A DNA stretch of 33,287 nt from Chloroflexia bacterium (lineage in GTDB: Bacteria > Chloroflexota > Chloroflexia > Thermomicrobiales > UBA6265). The translations under genes and the position numbers were made by a program. This document shows positions 8,721-20,194 of the stretch, one piece after another. The stretch lies in the NCBI GenBank assembly GCA_013697005.1, contig JACCXM010000386.1, positions 1 to 33,287 on the forward strand, in the 5' to 3' direction. The notes under the pieces are model-generated. The model saw nothing but the letters and a program-made list of their open reading frames with translations, made no database searches and was not told the origin of the DNA. Positions within the stretch are counted from its first letter, which is position 1. Each line of letters opens with the position of its first letter.

Positions 8721-9359
8721 ATGAAAGACTTGTCCCGCCGCCAGCAATCGATCCTTCACTTTATCGAGCATTTTCTGGATGCGAACGATTACCCTCCGAC
8801 GATCCGTGATATCCAGACCGAGCTCGGTATCTCATCGACCAGCGTCGTCGATTACAACCTCAAAGGTCTCGAAGCCCGGGGCTTGATTCGCCGCAATAGC
8901 AAGATTTCACGCGGCATCGAATTGGCAAGCCGCGGTTCCAGCCGCCGGAACATGGTGACTATTCCGGTCATCGGCCAGATCGCTGCCGGTCAACCGATTC
9001 CGGTCCCCGGCGATCTCGAAGGTTCGGATGTGACCGAGACCGTCGAGCTCGGGTCCGACTTGATGTCGAACAGTGGGCAGGGGCTTTTCGCCTTGCGGGT
9101 CAAGGGTCATTCGATGGTCGATGCCCTGATCAACGACGGCGATGTCGTCGTGCTCAGGCAGCAGGAGACCTGTGAAAACGGCGAAACCGTGGCGGTGTGG
9201 CTGAAAGAGCAACGCGAAACCACCCTCAAGCGGTTCTATCTGGAGGGTGACCACGTACGACTGCAGCCGGCCAACGTGACAATGGATCCGATCTACACTC
9301 CCGCCGAGAATGTGGAGATTCAGGGACGGCTCGTCGGCGTGGTCCGTTCGATCGACTAG
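8721..9359 (+). CDS. lexA: LexA repressor / SOS autoprotease
   Basis: The ATG at 8721 has AGCAGGAG about eight bases upstream and gives 212 aa, the normal LexA size; the open frame extends further upstream but through the promoter. Residues ~1-70 are the winged-helix DNA-binding domain (YPPTIRDIQTELGISS). The self-cleavage bond is A89-G90 in IAAGQ. The catalytic dyad is S131 (GHSMVDALI) and K170 (TTLKRF). LexA represses SOS genes until RecA filaments trigger its cleavage. An SOS box in its own promoter supports autoregulation. Confidence 0.97.
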   Translation: MKDLSRRQQSILHFIEHFLDANDYPPTIRDIQTELGISSTSVVDYNLKGLEARGLIRRNSKISRGIELASRGSSRRNMVTIPVIGQIAAGQPIPVPGDLEGSDVTETVELGSDLMSNSGQGLFALRVKGHSMVDALINDGDVVVLRQQETCENGETVAVWLKEQRETTLKRFYLEGDHVRLQPANVTMDPIYTPAENVEIQGRLVGVVRSID

Positions 9360-9389
9360 CGGCGGTCAATCAGTTCCGGAGGGGTGCTC

Positions 9390-9959
9390 GTGGAAACCGC
9401 GATACTCACCGGACTTGGACTCGCCGCGCCAGCGGGACTGAACGCGTACATTCCACTGCTGGCTCTCGCCCTCGCGGACCGAGCGACGTCTCGCGTGACC
9501 CTTGGCGCACCGTATGACGCGCTCTCCTCGAACGTGGGTATCGCGATTCTGGTGATTCTGCTCACCATCGAAGTGACCGTCGACAAGATCCCCGGCGTGG
9601 ACCATCTCAACGATATCGTCCAGTCATTCATTCGTCCTGCCGCGGGAGCCATCGCGGCTCTGGCCGCGACCGGCGGCGTGGCGGCCATCCATCCCGCAAT
9701 CATGGTTCTCCTCGGTCTGGTGCTCGCCGGTTCCGTCAACGTCGCCAAAGTCACGACCCGCCCGGCGGTGACGCTGGGAACCGCCGGGGTGTTCAATCCG
9801 CTAGTGAGCATTGCCGAAGATGCCGTTGCTATCATCGCCTCCACCGTCGCTATCTTTTTGCCGATTCTCGTCATTCTGGTCCTCCCCTGCTTCGCCATTT
9901 CCTCTATTCTTCTCATGCGTCGGGTTCGCACTTTGCGAACACGGGGTACATACCCATAA
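9390..9959 (+). CDS. DUF4126-like integral membrane protein
   Basis: This 189-aa protein has four to five hydrophobic segments, among them LTGLGLAAPAGLNAYIPLL at the N-terminus and a long C-terminal segment (VAIIASTVAIFLPILVILVL). The N-terminal glycine/alanine-rich helix with AGLNAY and the central DKIPGVDHLNDIVQ pattern recall the DUF4126 family of unknown function. GGAGG at 9378-9382 is spaced seven bases from the GTG at 9390 but only one base from the GTG at 9384, so 9390 is preferred. It follows lexA by 30 bases and may be co-transcribed. Role unknown. Confidence 0.72.
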   Translation: METAILTGLGLAAPAGLNAYIPLLALALADRATSRVTLGAPYDALSSNVGIAILVILLTIEVTVDKIPGVDHLNDIVQSFIRPAAGAIAALAATGGVAAIHPAIMVLLGLVLAGSVNVAKVTTRPAVTLGTAGVFNPLVSIAEDAVAIIASTVAIFLPILVILVLPCFAISSILLMRRVRTLRTRGTYP

Positions 9960-9960
9960 T
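9933..9960 (+). promoter_or_regulatory. Possible dnaJ promoter
   Basis: TTGCGA (9933-9938) and CATAAT (9955-9960) are separated by 16 bases, about 60 bases before the dnaJ ATG; the -10 overlaps the preceding stop codon. Neither an HspR-type HAIR element (CTTGAGT inverted repeat) nor a CIRCE element was seen here. Confidence 0.4.
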
Positions 9961-10021
9961 CGAAACCAGCGGACTGGCGCTTCCGCGGCGCAATTTCCGG
10001 TAAAGAGGTTCAGAGACAGGC

Positions 10022-11182
10022 ATGCCCAGCGTTCAGGTCAAGAATTACTATGAGACGCTTGGCGTGCCGCGCACCGCGAGCGAAAAGGAAATCCGCGCGG
10101 CGTATCGCAAGCTGGCGCGACAGCACCATCCCGATCTCAATCCCGGTGACAAGGGAGCCGAAGAGCGATTCAAAGAGGTCAATGAGGCACACGAGGTACT
10201 CATCGACCCGGACAAGCGGAAGCTGTTCGATCGATTTGGCGAAGATTGGCAGCGCTATCGAGATGCCGGTTTTACCGGAGACGAGCGGACTGCCACTCCT
10301 GGGGCGGGTGGCGGCGCCGCGTCCCGGGCTGGCCGCGGCGCCACGTTCGATCCCAACGACTTTACCCAGTGGTACTCGTCGCAAGGCGACGGCTCCGGTG
10401 ATTACACCTTCTACGCACCGAACGAAACCGACGAGTCACACTCGGACTTTTTCGAAACCTTGTTCGGGCAACGCGGATCGCCGTTTGACCGCTTCAGCGG
10501 TTTCGGCGGGGGGTTTTCTTCGAGCCGGGCGCGCCCCCGCTCACAAGCGACGCCCGCCAGACCGCGCCGTGGCGAGGACGCCCAAGTACCGGTCGAGGTC
10601 TCATTTGACGAGGCCTTCCGGGGGGCTTCGCGCCAGATCCAGTTGCAGGTGTCGGAACCATGTCCGACCTGCGGCGGCACCGGCGAGGCGCGTGGTCAGG
10701 AATGCCCCACCTGCGACGGTACCGGGTCCGTGCGCCGCACCAAGACCCTGGAGGTCGCGATTCCCCCTGGCATCGACTCGGGCAAACGCGTGCGCATGGC
10801 GGGTCAAGGTGGACCGGGGCTCAATGGCGGACCTGCCGGCGACGTCAACCTGATCATCACGGTCCGCCCCGACCGCCGCTTCGAGCGCGATGGCGACAAT
10901 CTCCGCACCGACGTCGACGTTCCTGTCACGACCGCGGTACTCGGGGGCGAAGTCGAAGTCAGCACCCCGTCGGGGATGGTGGCGCTGACTGTTCCACCGG
11001 AGACGCAGAGTGGCCGCAGCTTTCGGCTGCGCGGCCAAGGCATGCCCAAGCTGAGGCACCGCGGTGGCGAACGTGGCGATCTGCTGGCGCGGGCGCGTAT
11101 CGTGACCCCGACGGCACTTTCGGATCGCGAGCGCGAGCTGTTCCAGGAGCTTCGCGAGTTGCGGGAGGAGCGATCCTCCTGA
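10022..11182 (+). CDS. dnaJ: DnaJ-family co-chaperone with a reduced zinc-finger region
   Basis: The 386-aa protein begins with a J domain (residues ~8-70) carrying HPD at 36-38, the site that stimulates DnaK ATPase. A Gly/Ser/Phe-rich linker follows. The cysteine region has only two CXXCXGXG-type motifs (C214/C217 and C228/C231) instead of the four of canonical DnaJ, enough for one zinc centre rather than two. Two C-terminal substrate-binding beta domains follow (IPPGIDSGKRVRMAGQG; LRGQGMPKL). It could be called DnaJ or a CbpA-like relative; the two-motif finger makes it intermediate. It overlaps hspR by one base (TGATG). No dnaK or grpE lies in the window. Confidence 0.9.
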   Translation: MPSVQVKNYYETLGVPRTASEKEIRAAYRKLARQHHPDLNPGDKGAEERFKEVNEAHEVLIDPDKRKLFDRFGEDWQRYRDAGFTGDERTATPGAGGGAASRAGRGATFDPNDFTQWYSSQGDGSGDYTFYAPNETDESHSDFFETLFGQRGSPFDRFSGFGGGFSSSRARPRSQATPARPRRGEDAQVPVEVSFDEAFRGASRQIQLQVSEPCPTCGGTGEARGQECPTCDGTGSVRRTKTLEVAIPPGIDSGKRVRMAGQGGPGLNGGPAGDVNLIITVRPDRRFERDGDNLRTDVDVPVTTAVLGGEVEVSTPSGMVALTVPPETQSGRSFRLRGQGMPKLRHRGGERGDLLARARIVTPTALSDRERELFQELRELREERSS

Positions 11183-12964: not shown

Positions 12965-13438
12965 ATGGCTGTTACGGACCCATCGGGGATGATCGATGCC
13001 GAGGGCATCCAGAAGATCTTGCCCCACCGCTATCCGTTTCTCCTCGTCGACCGTATTGTCGAGCTATCACCGCCACGCCACGCTGTCGGCATCAAACAGG
13101 TTACGGTGAACGAGCCGTTTTTCCAGGGACATTTTCCCGGTTACCCAGTCATGCCGGGTGTGCTTATCGTCGAGGCCATGGCGCAGGTCGGTGGGGTGGC
13201 AGTCCTGTCCGACAATGAGTACCGGGACAAACTGGCCCTCTTCGCCGGTATCGACAATGTTCGTTTCAAGCGGCAGGTCAAACCCGGCGATACGATGCGG
13301 ATCGAAGTCGCGCTCCAGCAAATTCGGCGTGGCATCGGGATGGGGTCCGGTACTGCCACCGTTGATGGCGAGCTGGCCTGCCGCGGCGACATCATGTTCG
13401 CGCTCGTAGACAAACCCGAAGCGCTCAAGGGTCGCTGA
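12965..13438 (+). CDS. fabZ: 3-hydroxyacyl-ACP dehydratase FabZ
   Basis: This 157-aa hot-dog-fold enzyme has [12 protein letters not shown] and the active-site motif [20 protein letters not shown], with catalytic His56 and Glu70. FabZ dehydrates 3-hydroxyacyl-ACP in type II fatty-acid synthesis. The ATG at 12965 has AAGGAG eight bases upstream. It follows purA by 58 bases. No other fab gene is nearby. The stop codon lies in the loop of a small GTCGC/GCGAC hairpin (13431-13443) that could weakly terminate transcription. Confidence 0.96.
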
Positions 13439-13517
13439 GCGACATTTCGCCGACTTGTGCCCTGGCGTAAACTCTCTACGACTGGTCTCCTGAAAGTGCC
13501 ATGGAGAATGACGTTTC

Positions 13518-14108
13518 GTGTCTTCATCCGGCCGCGTCATTGGTCTGATCTTGATCGCCGCGGGGGTCATCATCGCCGGCATTGCTGGCGCGTGGCTTCT
13601 GTCTGGCATGCGCGAAGGGAATGTCCAGGGTTCTGGCGCACTCTTCGGGCTCCTGTTCGTGGTCCTGATTCTGGTGGCGCCGCTGGTGGGCGGGGGCATC
13701 TTCTTTCTCACCCGGGGCCGCGCCGAGGAGAAAGCGACCGAGCGCGTTCGCGGTCAGCGCCGGTTACTTGACATGGTGACAACACGTGGACAGCTCTCGA
13801 TTGTGGACGTCGCGCTGGAGCTCGGCATGACGCGGGACCAGATCGAAAGCGACCTCTACGATCTCGTGGGACTCGGTCTTTTCACGGGGTACGTCGATTG
13901 GCGAAAAGGCGTGCTGCATTCGGTCGAGGCCGTGCAACTCGAGGGGCGGCAGACGTGCCCCAACTGCGGCGGCGAGCTCACATTAGCAGGCAAGGGTCTG
14001 ATCAAATGCCCATACTGTGGCGCCGAAATCTTCCTCGGTTCAGCCGGTACGCGAGCACTGCCACTTGCGGAAGCTGAGGCGCTGCCGGCGGGAGGTCGCG
14101 CCCAGTGA
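13518..14108 (+). CDS. Membrane protein with winged-helix-like domain and C-terminal zinc ribbon
   Basis: A 196-aa protein I cannot assign to a named family. Residues 6-28 and 42-65 are membrane segments. Residues ~79-135 look like a winged helix (QRRLLDMVTTRGQLSIVDVA, then LGMTRDQIESDLYDLVGLGL). A zinc ribbon follows with CPNC at 147-150 and CPYC at 164-167. The domain order suggests a membrane-tethered sensor or adaptor facing the cytoplasm. The GTG at 13518 has GGAG about 11 bases upstream. Its stop overlaps the next start by four bases (GTGA), and PspA and SPFH genes follow, so a membrane-stress role is inferred. A TAAACT (13468-13473) upstream may be its -10. Confidence 0.8.
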   Translation: MSSSGRVIGLILIAAGVIIAGIAGAWLLSGMREGNVQGSGALFGLLFVVLILVAPLVGGGIFFLTRGRAEEKATERVRGQRRLLDMVTTRGQLSIVDVALELGMTRDQIESDLYDLVGLGLFTGYVDWRKGVLHSVEAVQLEGRQTCPNCGGELTLAGKGLIKCPYCGAEIFLGSAGTRALPLAEAEALPAGGRAQ

Positions 14109-15121
14109 GTCAAAAGCCAGAGGAGTATCTGGAACGGAAAGTTCGCCAGACGTTGGACCGGATACCCGGCTACCGCGGGTACCGCCTCAAAGAGGAGCGC
14201 CGCGACGCCGACCGGCGCGTCCGCGCGGCAGTAGCCGACGCCTATGCGGTCGAGCTGACGCGCGTCGAGAGGATTGGCCGCGACCTGGCGAACGACCGGC
14301 GTCTTGGCGAAATCTCCGCGGTGGAGCGCGCCAGCCAGAGCATTCGTCACTACATCGATCGCGTCCGCGCCGCGACTCCTGGCTACGGCGGTCTCTTTGG
14401 CGACCGTGACATCGATGGCGTGGCGTTGGATCAGCTTCGGCTCTTTGACGAAGGATTGCTCTTGGGGGTGGATGAGCTGCGGCCGTCGATCGACCGCCTC
14501 GAAAAAGACTTCGCCGCCGGCAACCCACTTGCACCGGGCGCCAGCGAAGCGGCGGCAACAATCGAAACCCAGCTCGCGAGATTCGACCGCCGCCATGAAG
14601 TCATCGACACCGGAATCGCTCTCAGCCGGGAGAATGTGCTGGCACTTCTGCAGCCGATGGCAGAGCTCATCCCAGCCGAGGCGTTTTCGGCCCGGCCGGG
14701 AGATGCCATTTCCATTTTGGGCGACGATTTCCTCGTCGATGCGATGATCGACGTCGACGGCCGTCCGCATTCGTTTCGCGTGTTCCGCATCGCGCGCGAT
14801 CCCGAAGAATGGCTCATGGTTGGCCGTGAGCCGTCGCAGCCGAATGTTCGCATGAGCCCGGTTGACGCACCGGAAAGCGGTACGACAATACCGGGCGATA
14901 GTCTGCGTCAGCAATCGGCGGGCACCGGCGATGGCGAGGTCGTGAGCGATCGCGAACCGAGTGGTTTGCGCGCCGTGCGGTACGCTCTGCTCGATGACCC
15001 GGACGACCCGGAGCGATTCGGGCTGATTCTCGATTGGGACGGCGTGCGCCAGGCGTTCGTTGGCCGTCGCATCGAGCCGATAGATGTCGAGGTGTTCCGG
15101 CGGGCTGACCCCGCGCACTAG
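14105..15121 (+). CDS. Conserved-looking hypothetical protein of PspA/SPFH cluster
   Basis: A 338-aa soluble protein with no membrane segment and no motif I recognise. Residues ~1-190 are strongly helical and charged (many Arg/Glu/Asp, few aromatics), suggesting coiled-coil or scaffold structure. Residues ~195-245 look like beta structure (GDAISILGDDFLVDAMIDVD). A low-complexity linker (~265-290) precedes a short C-terminal alpha/beta segment. The GTG start at 14105 overlaps the preceding stop (GTGA), so the two are probably translated together. The next gene is pspA, 42 bases on. Function unknown; a partner of PspA or the SPFH protein is the natural guess. Confidence 0.75.
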   Translation: MSQKPEEYLERKVRQTLDRIPGYRGYRLKEERRDADRRVRAAVADAYAVELTRVERIGRDLANDRRLGEISAVERASQSIRHYIDRVRAATPGYGGLFGDRDIDGVALDQLRLFDEGLLLGVDELRPSIDRLEKDFAAGNPLAPGASEAAATIETQLARFDRRHEVIDTGIALSRENVLALLQPMAELIPAEAFSARPGDAISILGDDFLVDAMIDVDGRPHSFRVFRIARDPEEWLMVGREPSQPNVRMSPVDAPESGTTIPGDSLRQQSAGTGDGEVVSDREPSGLRAVRYALLDDPDDPERFGLILDWDGVRQAFVGRRIEPIDVEVFRRADPAH

Positions 15122-15163
15122 CGTTTCGCCACGGGGCGGGACGGATGAAATGGGAGGGTGTTC

Positions 15164-15856
15164 ATGGCTGGAATAATGGACCGCTTGGCACGTCTCATCC
15201 GTGCCAATGTCAACGACATGATCGATCAGGCAGAAGATCCCGAGAAGATGATCGATCAGATTCTGCGGGAGATGAACGAGAGCATCGTCATGGCGCGGGC
15301 CCAGGTCGCATCCATGATCGCGCAGGAGAAGGAGCTCGAGCTGGAGGCCGCCGAAACCAGCAAACTCGCCGGGGAATGGGGCCGCAAGGCCGAGCGCGCC
15401 GTCACCGCCGGGAAGGACGATCTGGCCCGCGAGGCGCTGCGTCGCAAACGAGACAATGAGGAAAACTCCAAAATCTACGGCGAGCAGCTTGGCGTGCAAA
15501 CTCAAGCCGTGACCAAGTTAAAGGAGCAATTGCGGCAAATCGAGGCGAAGTACCAAACCACGCTGGGCGCGCGCGATTCGTTGGTCGCGCGCCAGCGCCG
15601 GGCGCGGTCGCAACGGCAAGTCGCCGAGGCCATCGTCGTCGTGACCCCGCTCGATCCTTCGTCCGAGTTGGATCGGATGGAGCGCAAGATTCGTGGCGAA
15701 GAAGCGTACGCAATGGCCGCATTGGAGGTTGGTGAGGAGAGCTTCGAGAGTCAGTTCCAGGCGTTGGAGGCCGAATCCGACGTCGAGGACGAGCTTGCCG
15801 AACTCAAGCGTTCGCTTGGGGCGGGTGGGTCACCCAGTCTGACGGCCGGAAACTAG
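15164..15856 (+). CDS. pspA: PspA/IM30 family membrane-stress protein
   Basis: The 230-aa, almost entirely helical protein starts MAGIMDRLARLIRANVNDM and continues with AEDPEKMIDQIL, the PspA/Vipp1 N-terminal signature (amphipathic helix 0 and helix 1). Long coiled-coil helices follow (residues ~25-190). PspA-type proteins are ESCRT-III relatives that polymerise on damaged membranes and hold proton-motive force. GGGAGGG sits about six bases before the ATG at 15164; an earlier GTG at 15158 overlaps that site and is rejected. It is followed 21 bases later by the SPFH gene, as pspA-like ydjF is grouped with ydjI in Bacillus subtilis. Confidence 0.92.
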   Translation: MAGIMDRLARLIRANVNDMIDQAEDPEKMIDQILREMNESIVMARAQVASMIAQEKELELEAAETSKLAGEWGRKAERAVTAGKDDLAREALRRKRDNEENSKIYGEQLGVQTQAVTKLKEQLRQIEAKYQTTLGARDSLVARQRRARSQRQVAEAIVVVTPLDPSSELDRMERKIRGEEAYAMAALEVGEESFESQFQALEAESDVEDELAELKRSLGAGGSPSLTAGN

Positions 15857-15877
15857 CCAGAACTCTTAGAGAGCCGC

Positions 15878-16837
15878 ATGGCCATCATTGACATCATCCA
15901 GCATCCGAGTGAACGCTCGGACGAGATCGTCTTTCGCGTGCCACAGCAGGGCGCCGGCGAGTTTCCATTTGGCTCCCAGTTGATCGTGCGCGAGGGCCAG
16001 GCGGCGGTCTTTTTCCGTGATGGCAAGTCGCTGGATACGTTCGGCCCCGGCCGCCACACGGTGAGCACGGGTAACCTGCCCCTGCTCTCGGGGCTGATGG
16101 GCATCGCTTTCGGTGGCAACTCACCATTTACCGCCGAGGTCTATTTCGTTTCGATGCGCGAATTGACCGATTTCAAATGGGGAACGGTGCAGCCTATCGT
16201 TTTCCGGGACGAGCAATTCGGCATGGTCCGGCTGCGCGGCTTCGGCACGTTTTCGGCGCGAGTCGCCGATCCCCAACTCTTCATCCAGCAGGTCGTCGGT
16301 TCACGCGGCGCCTATACCACCGGGCTGATCGAGGACCATTTGCGCGGGCTGATTGTCAACGAGTTCAATGACCTGCTCGGCGCCGTGCACACCTCACTCC
16401 TCGACTTGCCCGGACAGACGAGTGAACTGGCGGCGGCCATGCGGAACGCGCTGGGGGACGATTTTCGGCGGTTGGGGCTGGACCTCACCAGTTTTCAGAT
16501 CGTGGCCATCACGCCGCCTGACGAGGTGCAGCGGCGCATCGATGAGCGGACCGGGATGGCGGTGCTCGGCGTTCAGGAGGTGGATCGGCCGGGCGCCAGT
16601 CTGGAGCCGGTAGGAGCCGGTGAGGAGTCAGCTGCGCTTGCCCCAGGCAACGTTGGGCTGGAGCTTGGCTCCGGTGAAACCGGCGGTGAGATCATCCAAT
16701 TTCCCGTGCGCGAAACGGTCAGTGAGCCGGCGCATCTTGAAAAAACAGGAACGATCGAGTGCCCGCACTGCCACGCCCAGGCACCGGTGGGATCCCGATT
16801 CTGTCCGAACTGCGGCCGCTCGCTGCAAACCGAGTAA
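15878..16837 (+). CDS. SPFH-domain protein with C-terminal zinc ribbon (YdjI-like)
   Basis: At 319 aa, the protein starts MAIIDIIQHPSERSDEIVF, typical of the YdjI-like SPFH group, with the SPFH/band-7 core at ~25-230 (SQLIVREGQAAVFFRDGK; GRHTVSTGNLPLLSG). A short linker follows, then a zinc ribbon with C295, C298, C309 and C312 (CPHC...CPNCGRSL). No transmembrane helix is evident. YdjI-like proteins are recruited to membranes together with PspA under envelope stress in Bacillus. Spacing of 21 bases from pspA supports an operon. Co-function with the two upstream unknown proteins is inferred. Confidence 0.88.
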   Translation: MAIIDIIQHPSERSDEIVFRVPQQGAGEFPFGSQLIVREGQAAVFFRDGKSLDTFGPGRHTVSTGNLPLLSGLMGIAFGGNSPFTAEVYFVSMRELTDFKWGTVQPIVFRDEQFGMVRLRGFGTFSARVADPQLFIQQVVGSRGAYTTGLIEDHLRGLIVNEFNDLLGAVHTSLLDLPGQTSELAAAMRNALGDDFRRLGLDLTSFQIVAITPPDEVQRRIDERTGMAVLGVQEVDRPGASLEPVGAGEESAALAPGNVGLELGSGETGGEIIQFPVRETVSEPAHLEKTGTIECPHCHAQAPVGSRFCPNCGRSLQTE

Positions 16838-16861
16838 TCGGAACATCGGGCTGCATCATCG

Positions 16862-16896
16862 CGTAAAACCGGTTACGATATCGAGAAGTGTTCTCG
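16862..16896 (+). promoter_or_regulatory. Paired inverted repeats at a possible -10, upstream of small secreted gene
   Basis: CGTAA (16862-16866) pairs with TTACG (16873-16877), and CGAGAA (16882-16887) pairs with TTCTCG (16891-16896) around GTG. A possible -10, TACGAT (16874-16879), lies between them. The second repeat ends five bases before the AGGGGG ribosome site. It could be an operator or a small translation-blocking hairpin. Not a GAAC-type LexA box. Confidence 0.4.
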
Positions 16897-16910
16897 GGAC
16901 AGGGGGCAAA

Positions 16911-17198
16911 ATGACCAACATGAGTCGACTGCGCACCGCGGGCGCGTTGGCGCTCGCCATCGCGGCGCTCGGTACTGGAACTGGCGGTGCCTTCGCGCAA
17001 GAGGAACTCGGTTCCACGATCACAATCGGCGGCGGAACCGACGAAGTCGCCGGCGGCGAGTTTGTCGTGATCGCACCTGGGGTGACGATCAGCGGCGGTG
17101 AAGTGGTCAACGAAACCGGAATCGGGGTCATCATCGGCGGCGGTTCCTCCGTCGGCGCCGCAACTGGCGGTGGCGACAATGCCGCGCTCGACGAATAG
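16911..17198 (+). CDS. Small secreted glycine-rich protein, unknown function
   Basis: A 95-aa protein with a clear signal peptide: basic N-terminus (MSRLRTA), hydrophobic core (GALALAIAALG) and an AFA-Q cleavage site after residue 29. The mature ~66 residues are acidic and rich in Gly, Val and Ile, with repeated short hydrophobic patches separated by GGG (TIGGGTDEVAGGE, then VIIGGGSS), suggesting a beta-rich secreted or surface peptide. No cysteine is present. The ATG at 16911 is preceded by AGGGGG. I do not recognise the family. Next gene starts five bases after the stop. Confidence 0.7.
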   Translation: MTNMSRLRTAGALALAIAALGTGTGGAFAQEELGSTITIGGGTDEVAGGEFVVIAPGVTISGGEVVNETGIGVIIGGGSSVGAATGGGDNAALDE

Positions 17199-17203
17199 CA
17201 CAG

Positions 17204-17593
17204 ATGCGCGGCCCGATTGGTCCGCGGTGCGCATTCCTGGTCGCGTGCCTCATCGCGGCCGCTTTCATGATGGGGATGCTTGGTCCCGCCAGTTCTCACA
17301 CTGTCGAGGCTCAGCCGCGCCCGACCGCAACCATCTTGGCGATTCAGTTTCCGCCGCCGGTTCCGGGGCTTGAGTACCCGGCGATCGAGTCAAGCCCTGG
17401 AGCGGTCACGCGTCCTGCGTTGGCGGCGGCAACCCCCGCGCCGTCAGGCGATGTCACAAGCGGAACGCTCGAAGTGGCCGGGCCCGGCAGCGGAGGATCG
17501 CTGACGGCGAGTCTCGCGGGGCTGGACAGCAGCGCCTCCAGCGTCGGCGATTCTCACGATGTCGATCGTCCCGCAAGGCGAAGTAAAAAATAG
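17204..17593 (+). CDS. Small secreted Pro/Ala/Ser-rich hypothetical protein
   Basis: A 129-aa reading with a hydrophobic N-terminal segment (AFLVACLIAAAFMMGMLG) resembling a signal peptide, then a low-complexity Pro/Ala/Ser/Gly-rich region and a basic tail (RPARRSKK). It follows the preceding secreted gene by five bases, but no good Shine-Dalgarno is visible before the ATG at 17204, so it may be translated by coupling. Function unknown; the low complexity lowers confidence that it is a true gene. Confidence 0.5.
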   Translation: MRGPIGPRCAFLVACLIAAAFMMGMLGPASSHTVEAQPRPTATILAIQFPPPVPGLEYPAIESSPGAVTRPALAAATPAPSGDVTSGTLEVAGPGSGGSLTASLAGLDSSASSVGDSHDVDRPARRSKK

Positions 17594-17600
17594 AACTATT

Positions 17601-17616
17601 CCGCGTCCGTACGCGG
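17601..17616. terminator. Possible weak terminator hairpin before gyrA
   Basis: CCGCGT and ACGCGG pair around ccgt eight bases after the stop of the small secreted gene. An A-run (17585-17590) lies upstream and only a short T-rich stretch (ctcgattt) downstream, so termination is plausible but unproven. Confidence 0.3.
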
Positions 17617-17643
17617 CTATCTCGATTTGATGCGCTGAAATTG

Positions 17644-17652
17644 TGGTAAACT
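17644..17652 (+). promoter_or_regulatory. Extended -10 promoter of gyrA
   Basis: TGG-TAAACT is an extended -10 (TG-N-TAAACT) ending 52 bases before the gyrA start. A weak TTTGAT lies 15 bases upstream. The same GTGGTAAACT decamer recurs upstream of hppA (29766-29775). Confidence 0.55.
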
Positions 17653-17704
17653 TATGTTCGATTAGCGATGCTGGGTTTGCTTTCCAGGTTAGGGGAATCG
17701 ACTC

Positions 17705-20194
17705 GTGGAAATCGGCAACGTACGGTTGGCCAGCGTCGAAACCGAAATGCGGCAATCGTTTCTCGATTATGCCGTCAGCGTCATCGTGCAACGTGCCCTG
17801 CCAGACGCTCGCGATGGACTCAAACCGGTCCACCGGCGGGTTCTCTTTGCGATGTCGGAGATGGGACTTCGCTCCAATACGCGCTATCGCAAGAGTGCCG
17901 GTATCGTCGGCGAGGTGCTGAAGAGCTATCACCCCCACGGCGACCAATCGGTTTATGACACCCTGGTTCGCATGGCGCAGGAATTCAACCTCCGCTATCC
18001 CCTGGTTGACGGACAGGGCAACTTCGGATCCGTGGATGGGGACGGCGCCGCGGCGATGCGCTACACCGAGGCCCGCCTCACCGCGATCTCCGACGAGCTG
18101 CTCGCCGACCTGGACAAGAACACGGTCGATTTCCAACCAAACTACGATGCTTCCAGCGAAGAGCCCAAGGTTCTGCCGGCTCGCCTGCCGAACCTCCTCC
18201 TGAACGGGAGCACCGGCATTGCGGTCGGGATGGCGACCAACATTCCCCCACACAATCTCAACGAAGTGTGCGATGCGATTTCGCTGCTAATCGAGAATCC
18301 CGACGCCACGGTCGAAGATCTGCTGGAGGTCGTGACCGGACCCGATTTTCCGACCGGGGGCACGATTCTCGGCCGCGAAGGAATCAAGGCGGCCTATGCC
18401 ACCGGGCGCGGCCGCATCGTGGTCCGCGCCAAAGCATTCGTCGAAGAGTCTCCCCGCGGTGGTCGTTATCAGATTGTCGTCTCCGAGTTGCCATACCAGG
18501 TCAACAAAGCCCATCTCCTGGAGCGGATCGCCGATCAGGTCCGGGAGGGCAAGCTCGACGGCATCAGCGACCTCCGGGACGAATCTGACCGCTCCGGGAT
18601 GCGCGCCATTATCGAGCTGAAGCGCGATGCGCAGCCGATGAAGGTGCTCAACAACCTCTTCAAGCATTCACAGCTGCAATCAAGTTTCGGCGTAAACATG
18701 GTCGCCCTGGTCGATCGCGGCACCCAGCCGCGCACGCTCACGTTGAAGCGGGCGCTGCAGGAATACATCTCCCATCGTCAGGAGGTCGTCACCCGGCGTA
18801 CGGAGTTCGAGCTGGAGCGCGCTCGTCGCCGCGCTCATGTGCTCGAAGGACTCAAGATCGCGCTCGACAACATCGACGAGGTGATTACCACGATTCGGGC
18901 GTCGCGTACAACGGAAACCGCGCGCGCGAACCTGATGAAGAAATTCACCCTCACCGAGGTCCAATCGTCGGCCATTCTCGATATGCGGCTCGCGCGTCTG
19001 GCGGGGCTGGAGCGCAAGAAGATCGAAGACGAGCTGAAAGACGTTCGTGCCGAAATCGTCAGGCTGGAAACCCTGCTCGGTGACCCAAAGCTGATCCTTG
19101 GCGTCATTCGAAGCGACATGGCCGCGCTCAAGGAGAAATACGGGGACGAGCGGCGCACCAGGATTCAGGACATCTCCGGCGCCTTGTCAGAAGAAGATCT
19201 CATCCCGGAAGTCGATGTCCTGGTTACGCTGACTAACCGCGGGTACGCCAAGCGCAGCGTCGGCGATGTGTTCCGGACTCAGCACCGCGGGGGGCGCGGT
19301 GTTACCGGCGTGACGATGCGGGACGAGGACGAGGTGCAACACATCCTCGCCGCCAATAGCCACGACTGGCTCCTGGTGTTCACGAACCGGGGCAAGGTCT
19401 ACCAACTCAAGGTCCATGAGCTCCCGGACGCCGGGCGCACCGCCAAAGGTATGCCGATCATCAATCTCGTCAACATGCAGCCTGATGAAACTGTCACCAC
19501 CCTGATGAAAGTCCGCGACTACGCAACGGGTCTTTATTTGTTCTTCACGACGAGACTCGGCCGCGTCAAGCGCACTACCCTCGATCAGTTCCGGTCCGTA
19601 CGCTCATCCGGGTTGATTGCCATAGGCCTCGATGATGAGGATGAGCTCGCCTGGGTGCGGATGACGAGTGGCGAGGACGACGTGATGCTCGTCAGTCAAG
19701 GCGGGCAAGCGATCCGCTTCCGGGAAGAAGTGGTGCGGCCGATGGGCCGGCCGGCGGCCGGCGTGATTGGCATTCGTATGGCAAAGGGAGACCGGGTCAT
19801 CGCTTCCGAGGCGGTTGTCGCGGGCAAAGATCTGCTCGTCGTGGCGCAAACCGGACTGGGCAAGCGAACCCGTACCGATCACTTCATGACGAAGGGCCGT
19901 GCCGGCAAGGGAGTCGCGGCGATGAAACTCACTGCCCGCACCGGTCAGATCGTCGGAGCCGGCATGGTGAACGACGATCACACCTTGATGCTGATGAGCA
20001 CCTCCGGCAAAGTCATCCGTCTCCCGGTCTCCCAGATCCCCACGATTGGGCGGCAGACGCAAGGCGTGACGTTGATGAAGCTCGTTCCCGGCGAAATGGT
20101 CGCGACCATGACGATCGCCGATCAGACCAGCGAAGACCCAGATCCCAGCCTACCTCCGCTCAATGGACACGGCGACGTATCGACGCTCTCCTGA
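17705..20194 (+). CDS. gyrA: DNA gyrase subunit A
   Basis: This 829-aa protein has the catalytic tyrosine Y120 in AMRYTEARL and the quinolone-resistance region [18 protein letters not shown] GyrA-box variant QHRGGRG at 526-532 marks a DNA-wrapping gyrase rather than topoisomerase IV, and a C-terminal beta-pinwheel domain follows. Gyrase A cuts and rejoins DNA to introduce negative supercoils together with GyrB; gyrB is not adjacent. E. coli Ser83 corresponds to Gln81 here, and Asp87 to Asp85. The GTG at 17705 has AGGGGA about ten bases upstream. Its 3' end converges on a minus-strand membrane gene after 25 bases. Confidence 0.97.

Follow-up and report, generated by a model that had tools for sequence, protein, structure and literature searches.

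What two proteins encoded directly ahead of a pspA gene do there was the question raised by four adjoining genes in a 33,287-nucleotide (nt) stretch of Chloroflexia DNA (GenBank assembly GCA_013697005.1, contig JACCXM010000386.1; hereafter the window). The first two genes, p1 and p2, encode P1 (196 amino acids [aa]) and P2 (338 aa) and are followed by pspA and a gene for a YdjI-like SPFH protein. A sequence-only reading had described them as a PspA module with two uncharacterized partners. Comparison with more than 100 related loci, using profiles, predicted structures, and neighborhoods, led us to a reading that we hold at an even balance: the operon would encode a membrane-tethered SPFH scaffold on which the C-terminal domain of P2, a divergent DUF4178, provides a docking site for PspA.

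The relation between P1 and P2 emerged from a fused protein, consisting of the P1 hairpin, the N-terminal part of P2 (P2N), and DUF4178, that was found in six genomes other than the window's; DUF4178 (PF13785) exceeded the Pfam cut-off in four of the six proteins. A hold-out profile, built from the six with the window excluded, was run against 7481 open reading frames (ORFs). It matched window p1 at positions 9-91 (independent E-value [iE] 1.6e-14) and p2 at positions 90-383 (iE 1.8e-14), and the two together covered the profile end to end, essentially without overlap. Beyond the six fused proteins themselves, all further matches to an E-value of 1e-2 fell into three classes: P1 proteins (about 4-116), P2N proteins (about 83-220), and DUF4178 proteins (from 233). 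P1 is matched by the fused form in its first 90 to 110 or so residues only, with its winged helix and zinc ribbon outside the match. P1 and P2 belong together because they are fused in relatives; on these alignments, the P1 hairpin and P2 represent the split form of one protein rather than two separate partners, as had been supposed.

Window p2 itself had no match over cut-off in Pfam, where PF13785 gave nothing even at E-values up to 1, and a DUF4178 profile search of the window genome (G000) gave no match; NCBIfam LIMLP_15305 reached 18.3 bits, far under its cut-off of 210. Among seven P2 orthologues, PF13785 exceeded its cut-off of 25 bits in four (62.5, 61.1, 53.5, and 44.5 bits), one scored 24.9 bits, and two, including the nearest relative (L162), scored 14-15 bits. 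Because of these orthologue matches and the hold-out match of window p2, the C-terminal part of P2 (P2C) is assigned by profile as a divergent DUF4178. The 338-aa protein, previously taken as wholly unknown, would therefore combine a helical bundle with a domain that PspA operons are known to encode. In the predicted structure, the bundle comprises helices 29-63, 67-89, 105-138, and 143-161, and the strands of the beta domain span residues 201-331. A Foldseek search of the model against the PDB returned nothing at E ≤ 0.001. A specific fold for P2 was considered and rejected, as the best VIA-align match (IncA, Z 12.2; others 8-11.6) fell below the specificity level for helical bundles, and lipid-binding barrels matched the beta domain only weakly (E 0.2 or worse) and were not used. 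P2N is thus modeled as a four-helix bundle, with no finer fold call.

The distribution of these proteins was surveyed in 201 Chloroflexota genomes spread evenly over the phylum. Matches to p2 were found in 32 genomes, to p1 in 22, to PspA (PF04012) in 104, and to the SPFH query in 56, several of the last via the zinc ribbon alone. Because p1 and p2 are conserved as proteins so far outside the window genome, they are not chance ORFs. Most p2 matches span only query residues ~10-172, in frames of ~180 aa that constitute stand-alone P2N. Two sets of neighborhoods were compared: 31 regions around p2 matches plus 20 further regions, scanned with profiles built from the set itself, and P1 loci obtained by scanning a P1 alignment against genome contigs, where the best 80 of 238 relatives were retained and close relatives of the window are over-represented. 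The conserved unit indicated by these comparisons is a three-gene core, P1-P2N-SPFH, widespread in Chloroflexota, although several genomes have the pieces apart, and in one family the region fetched from many genomes contains P2N but no SPFH. Among the 80 loci, 78 carried labels of Chloroflexota/Thermomicrobiota groups; the exceptions were L197 ("bacterium") and L232 ("Bacteroidetes"), the latter nesting deep within Anaerolineae on the P1 tree and probably a misbinned contig.

This core occurs in two operon types. Type A, found in Anaerolineae, Ardenticatenia, Caldilineales, and Thermoflexales, has the order P1-short P2-SPFH, usually behind DUF2207, and contains no pspA. Type B, to which the window belongs, has the order P1-long P2-pspA-SPFH without DUF2207 and is mostly found in genomes labeled Thermomicrobiales or Chloroflexia. 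The two types share homologous P1, P2N, and SPFH genes in one order; type A differs from the window in its upstream DUF2207, short P2, lack of pspA, and mostly SHOCT-like or HTH_17-like SPFH tail. Where enough upstream sequence was available, DUF2207 preceded 1 of 20 long-P2 loci versus 19 of 21 short-P2 loci. The four genes do adjoin in the window, as the sequence-only reading had it, but the core is mostly found without pspA, so the description as a PspA module holds only in part. That reading had also staked the module on P1 and P2 keeping company with pspA: across the phylum they occur mostly away from it, whereas within the window's family they stand beside it. P1 was present in 37 of 61 genomes of the window's order (a set overlapping with the 80 P1 loci), including 30 of 32 in the window's own family and 0 of 21 in another family (f2); pspA lay within 2 kb of P1 on the same contig in 32 of the 37, and in the remaining five P1 was near a contig end. 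As a separate observation, PspA in f2 genomes, where present, matched PF04012 more weakly (best E 1e-21 to 1e-27) than in P1-bearing genomes of the order (1e-44 or better), and by these matches appears to be a different PspA with other partners. In L213, L215, L228, L234, and L236, a DUF2207-P1 pair was noted with no P2 or SPFH after it, and such a pair may be a unit in itself.

The length of P2 and the presence of pspA were found to go together. In 58 of the 80 P1 loci, P2 was complete and 2.2 kb or more of sequence followed; a long P2 accompanied pspA in 25 of these and a short P2 its absence in 33, with no mixed cases. These are counts of loci rather than of independent events, and kinship among the loci is strong. 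Left out were 22 loci in which P2 was truncated or not found or less than 2.2 kb lay downstream, among them four with long P2 and pspA (L164, L167, L171, and L175), one with long P2 and no pspA (L197), and two with short P2 and no pspA (L219 and L224). In a wider set, requiring a complete P2 with pspA or SPFH in view and including the window, 31 of 66 rows had a long P2, 30 of them with pspA. Because the DUF4178 part distinguishes the pspA-bearing operons, it is proposed as the PspA dock.

Several observations weigh against that proposal, and the first of them favor a different explanation, which we consider unlikely: DUF4178 on P2 and pspA would each have been gained once in a Thermomicrobia-like ancestor and co-inherited, with P1-P2-SPFH and PspA acting separately. 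The P1 tree needs just three changes for long P2 and four for pspA, and an independent-pairs test contained one pair on well-supported branches (three on all), too few to reach significance, although the single supported pair runs in the expected direction. Type B is largely one lineage with a fixed place, in the window as elsewhere, between fabZ (ahead of P1 in 24 of the 25 loci that carry pspA and have over 1.3 kb of upstream sequence) and gyrA (often downstream; nearby in 16 of 29), as vertical synteny would produce. In addition, L197, the sole exception among the 66 rows, has a long P2 with SPFH directly next and no pspA before the contig end, and the long P2 of L181 has a C-terminus that DUF4178 profiles do not match. 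No pspA adjoins the fused gene in five of the six fused-protein genomes (DUF2207 is upstream in four), and pspA lies on another contig in five genomes with a fused DUF4178 protein. Two genomes (G002 and G015, 73 and 84% complete) each encode two DUF4178 proteins, with no PspA found. The fold matches of the P1 and P2 models, too, are at the level of common folds only.

Co-inheritance alone nevertheless fits poorly with three observations. A locus of Anaerolineales (L189), outside the main clade and lacking fabZ, carries all five genes, combining a long P2 and pspA with DUF2207. DUF4178 also adjoins pspA in settings unrelated to type B: in G158, of the same class as the window, DUF2207 is followed by a 397-aa fused protein and then pspA; in G001 a stand-alone DUF4178 protein directly precedes pspA; and the pairing is known from the literature, as CesT/Tir-PspA operons also encode DUF4178, DUF350, and a spermine/spermidine-type synthase (PMC11237479). 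Finally, the operon order is maintained across deep divergence. Together, these data are suggestive of a coupling between long P2 and pspA, with one to three independent changes on the tree.

For the tether that the docking proposal requires, P1 is the sole candidate anchor, because no other product of the four has transmembrane (TM) segments; a hydrophobicity scan identified two hydrophobic segments in P1. Its model consists of helices 3-32 and 38-90, a winged helix (92-135), and a CxxC...CxxC ribbon to about residue 172, and its family alignment has 14 invariant columns, including C147, C150, C164, and C167. The best fold match of the winged helix was a COP9 signalosome subunit (VIA-align Z 8.9, root mean square deviation 1.5 over 68 residues); the ranking was headed by PCI winged helices, from COP9 and from the proteasome lid, and UFL1/DDRGK1 were also among the matches. 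PF01399 (PCI) scored 15.8 bits (E 0.016), under its cut-off of 22, and a Foldseek search with the P1 model gave nothing at E ≤ 0.001. The profile and structure searches proposed for the 196-aa and 338-aa proteins have thus allowed domains to be assigned, with fold searches returning common folds only.

A winged helix could alternatively act in signaling, with tethered P1 binding DNA and relaying envelope state to transcription and the zinc ribbon serving as sensor. The winged-helix transcription factors TM1602, NiaR, and BirA do match the P1 fold at Z ~7, and HTH_17 is the terminal domain of some type A SPFH proteins, as in L208 (gene at 9088-10137; PF12728, 3.2e-10; excisionase type). However, transcription factors scored Z 7.5 and below, about 1 Z unit or more under the best match, behind the PCI scaffold winged helices; the net charge of the presumed recognition helix ranges from −3 to +1 across all 12 sequences; and the winged helix and ribbon lie outside the part of P1 that the fused form matches. 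Because the winged helix is nearest the PCI scaffold type and its presumed recognition helix carries this charge, DNA sensing by P1 is disfavored, and we regard the signaling explanation as quite improbable. A protein-binding rather than DNA-binding winged helix is favored, short of proof, by the fold matches and this charge. As a PspA-specific nucleator it was downgraded, since type A loci carry P1 without pspA; in the 201-genome sample, only 6 of the 13 genomes that p1 matched strongly had any match to PspA.

The two remaining products were identified without difficulty. Window PspA matched PF04012 at 154 bits (cut-off 33.9; 5.7e-45; profile 1-217 of 220), and the SPFH protein matched PF13421 (Band_7_1) at 216.9 bits (cut-off 24; 3.2e-64; residues 18-228). 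No hydrophobic window was found in the SPFH protein that would correspond to a TM segment; with Band_7_1, no TM segment, and a C-terminal zinc ribbon, it is YdjI-like. These matches, with the P1 model and hydrophobicity, support the earlier description of a PspA-SPFH operon with a tethered winged-helix/zinc-ribbon protein. SPFH tails were counted by motif in frames not flagged as cut. In pspA-bearing loci, 22 of 24 were zinc ribbons and 2 were other; in 34 loci without pspA, 15 were SHOCT-like, 9 HTH_17-like, 6 zinc ribbons, and 4 other. A Pfam check of two tails gave 24.2 bits for SHOCT (cut-off 27) and 40.5 bits for HTH_17 (cut-off 27). Of the tails classed as "other," that of L175 is at the end of a contig, and those of L225 and L232 are apparently frame-broken. 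By these motifs, the SPFH tail appears exchangeable among zinc ribbon, SHOCT-like, and HTH_17-like forms. SPFH proteins can scaffold membrane proteases, as in HflKC-like assemblies, and an exchangeable tail, as though choosing clients, would suit a quality-control role in which SPFH, P1, and P2 form a chaperone-like or protease-linked membrane assembly with PspA as merely one client. We consider this improbable, as no protease gene occurred in the tracked gene string, where protease profiles were not searched systematically.

In the docking proposal, the TM hairpin of P1 would anchor the complex in the membrane, exposing its PCI-like winged helix and zinc ribbon as protein-binding surfaces. 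The P2N bundle would couple P1 to the soluble SPFH protein, which would assemble at the membrane, and DUF4178 would be the specific adaptor that contacts PspA and recruits it to this platform, where PspA would then act on the stressed membrane. All four products would thus form one complex. Anaerolineae and related classes would perform the same core functions without PspA, with DUF2207 instead. A broader and more tentative idea, which we think possible but rather doubtful, is that P1-P2N-SPFH is a PspA-independent platform of Chloroflexota, accompanied by DUF2207 in its other form, and DUF4178 a transferable PspA-docking domain whose presence on P2 makes the platform recruit PspA.

A role in envelope stress or membrane repair is suggested by analogy with the pspA-ydjGHI operon of Bacillus subtilis. 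There, the SPFH protein YdjI is soluble, and the membrane foci of both YdjI and PspA disappear when YdjG or YdjH is missing (PMC8581546, PMC9239133); YdjH interacts with both YdjI and PspA (PMC8581546; also PMC9239133). YdjG is described as having two zinc ribbons, a YpeB-related NTF2-like domain, and a TM segment, and YdjH as having a TPM domain (PMC11237479). Both operons encode PspA, a soluble Band_7_1 SPFH protein, and two more proteins, at least one membrane-anchored, and in both the SPFH protein and an anchor carry zinc ribbons. However, pspA is the third gene in the window and the first in Bacillus. P1, with its N-terminal TM hairpin, winged helix, and single C-terminal ribbon, is set apart by the description of YdjG, and P2, a helical bundle with DUF4178, is unlike YdjH; no TPM match was listed for the four products at E-values up to 1 (for p1, among the best 25 of 47 families). 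The first two proteins therefore do differ from YdjG and YdjH, as had been noted from the sequence, and the window operon is analogous, not homologous, to the Bacillus arrangement. It resembles the CesT/Tir-PspA operons in encoding DUF4178 and PspA together, but here DUF4178 is part of one protein with P2N and is partnered by an SPFH protein, and a Pfam scan found no CesT/Tir, DUF350, or spermine/spermidine-type synthase among the four products. The main survey of PspA mentions Chloroflexi once, for PspAA (PMC11237479). No account of a P1-P2-pspA-SPFH operon, or of PspA with SPFH in Chloroflexi, was found in a search that subscription papers and supplements lay beyond, in keeping with the first impression of an under-described system. 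The PspA-SPFH kind of operon and DUF4178 in PspA operons are known, and the Chloroflexota P1-P2 version appears to be new.

The four ORFs and the overlap of p1 with p2 lie as first reported (Table 1). A GTG in frame with pspA is present at 15158, and gaps of 42 nt (p2-pspA) and 21 nt (pspA-SPFH) separate the later genes. The window genome encodes a single PspA, and p1, p2, and the SPFH protein are each matched there once; the DUF2207 gene of this genome lies on a different contig, apart from the operon (G000:C148:2750-3466, L153). A promoter and terminator scan of 13300-17720 found sites no more numerous than in shuffles. Between the SPFH gene and gyrA are two small ORFs (16911-17198 and 17204-17593) without Pfam matches, for both of which L162, the nearest relative, is the only one of the 80 loci with a match; the first has a signal-peptide-like N-terminus and a Gly-rich body.

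Table 1. Coordinates of the four genes and their assigned domains in the window
Feature	Position	Strand	Description and basis
p1	13518..14108	+	GTG start; 196 aa; P1, membrane hairpin, winged helix, and zinc ribbon; model predicted local distance difference test (pLDDT) 76.5
P1 residues 1-67, predicted TM hairpin	13518..13718	+	Hydrophobicity; homologous to N-terminus of fused protein (profile 9-91, iE 1.6e-14)
P1 residues 92-137, predicted winged helix, PCI-like by fold	13791..13928	+	DSSP of model; VIA-align
P1 residues 145-173, putative C4 zinc ribbon	13950..14036	+	Invariant Cys; sub-threshold Pfam zinc-ribbon matches
p1 stop/p2 start overlap, GTGA	14105..14108	+	Read from sequence
p2	14105..15121	+	GTG start; 338 aa; P2, helical-bundle adaptor (proposed) and DUF4178-like domain; model pLDDT 84.5
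P2N residues 1-172, predicted four-helix bundle	14105..14620	+	Part common to ~180-aa stand-alone type A proteins
P2C residues 195-335, putative divergent DUF4178	14687..15109	+	Hold-out fused-protein profile; orthologue PF13785 matches
pspA (PspA/IM30)	15164..15856	+	ATG preceded by GGAGG; 230 aa; PF04012
SPFH gene (YdjI-like)	15878..16837	+	ATG start; 319 aa; PF13421
SPFH residues 295-316, C-terminal zinc ribbon	16760..16825	+	PF13240, 29.7 bits (cut-off 25), 5.3e-07

Two protein families, P1 and P2N, are defined by this analysis, for neither of which Pfam scans found a full-length model. It also provides a context for DUF4178 and DUF2207, so far annotated merely as of unknown function or as a predicted membrane protein; for DUF2207, a role in stress tolerance has been described in Streptococcus mutans (PMC10457818). 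Overall, an anchor in the membrane, a scaffold of SPFH type, and a single domain accompanying pspA make up a testable proposal for the membrane recruitment of PspA in a deep bacterial lineage, beyond the few model bacteria. If the broader idea of a transferable docking domain is true, DUF4178 would flag PspA partners wherever it is found, and P1 would be a scaffold beside an ESCRT-III-type protein, like the winged-helix ESCRT-II proteins of archaea and eukaryotes.

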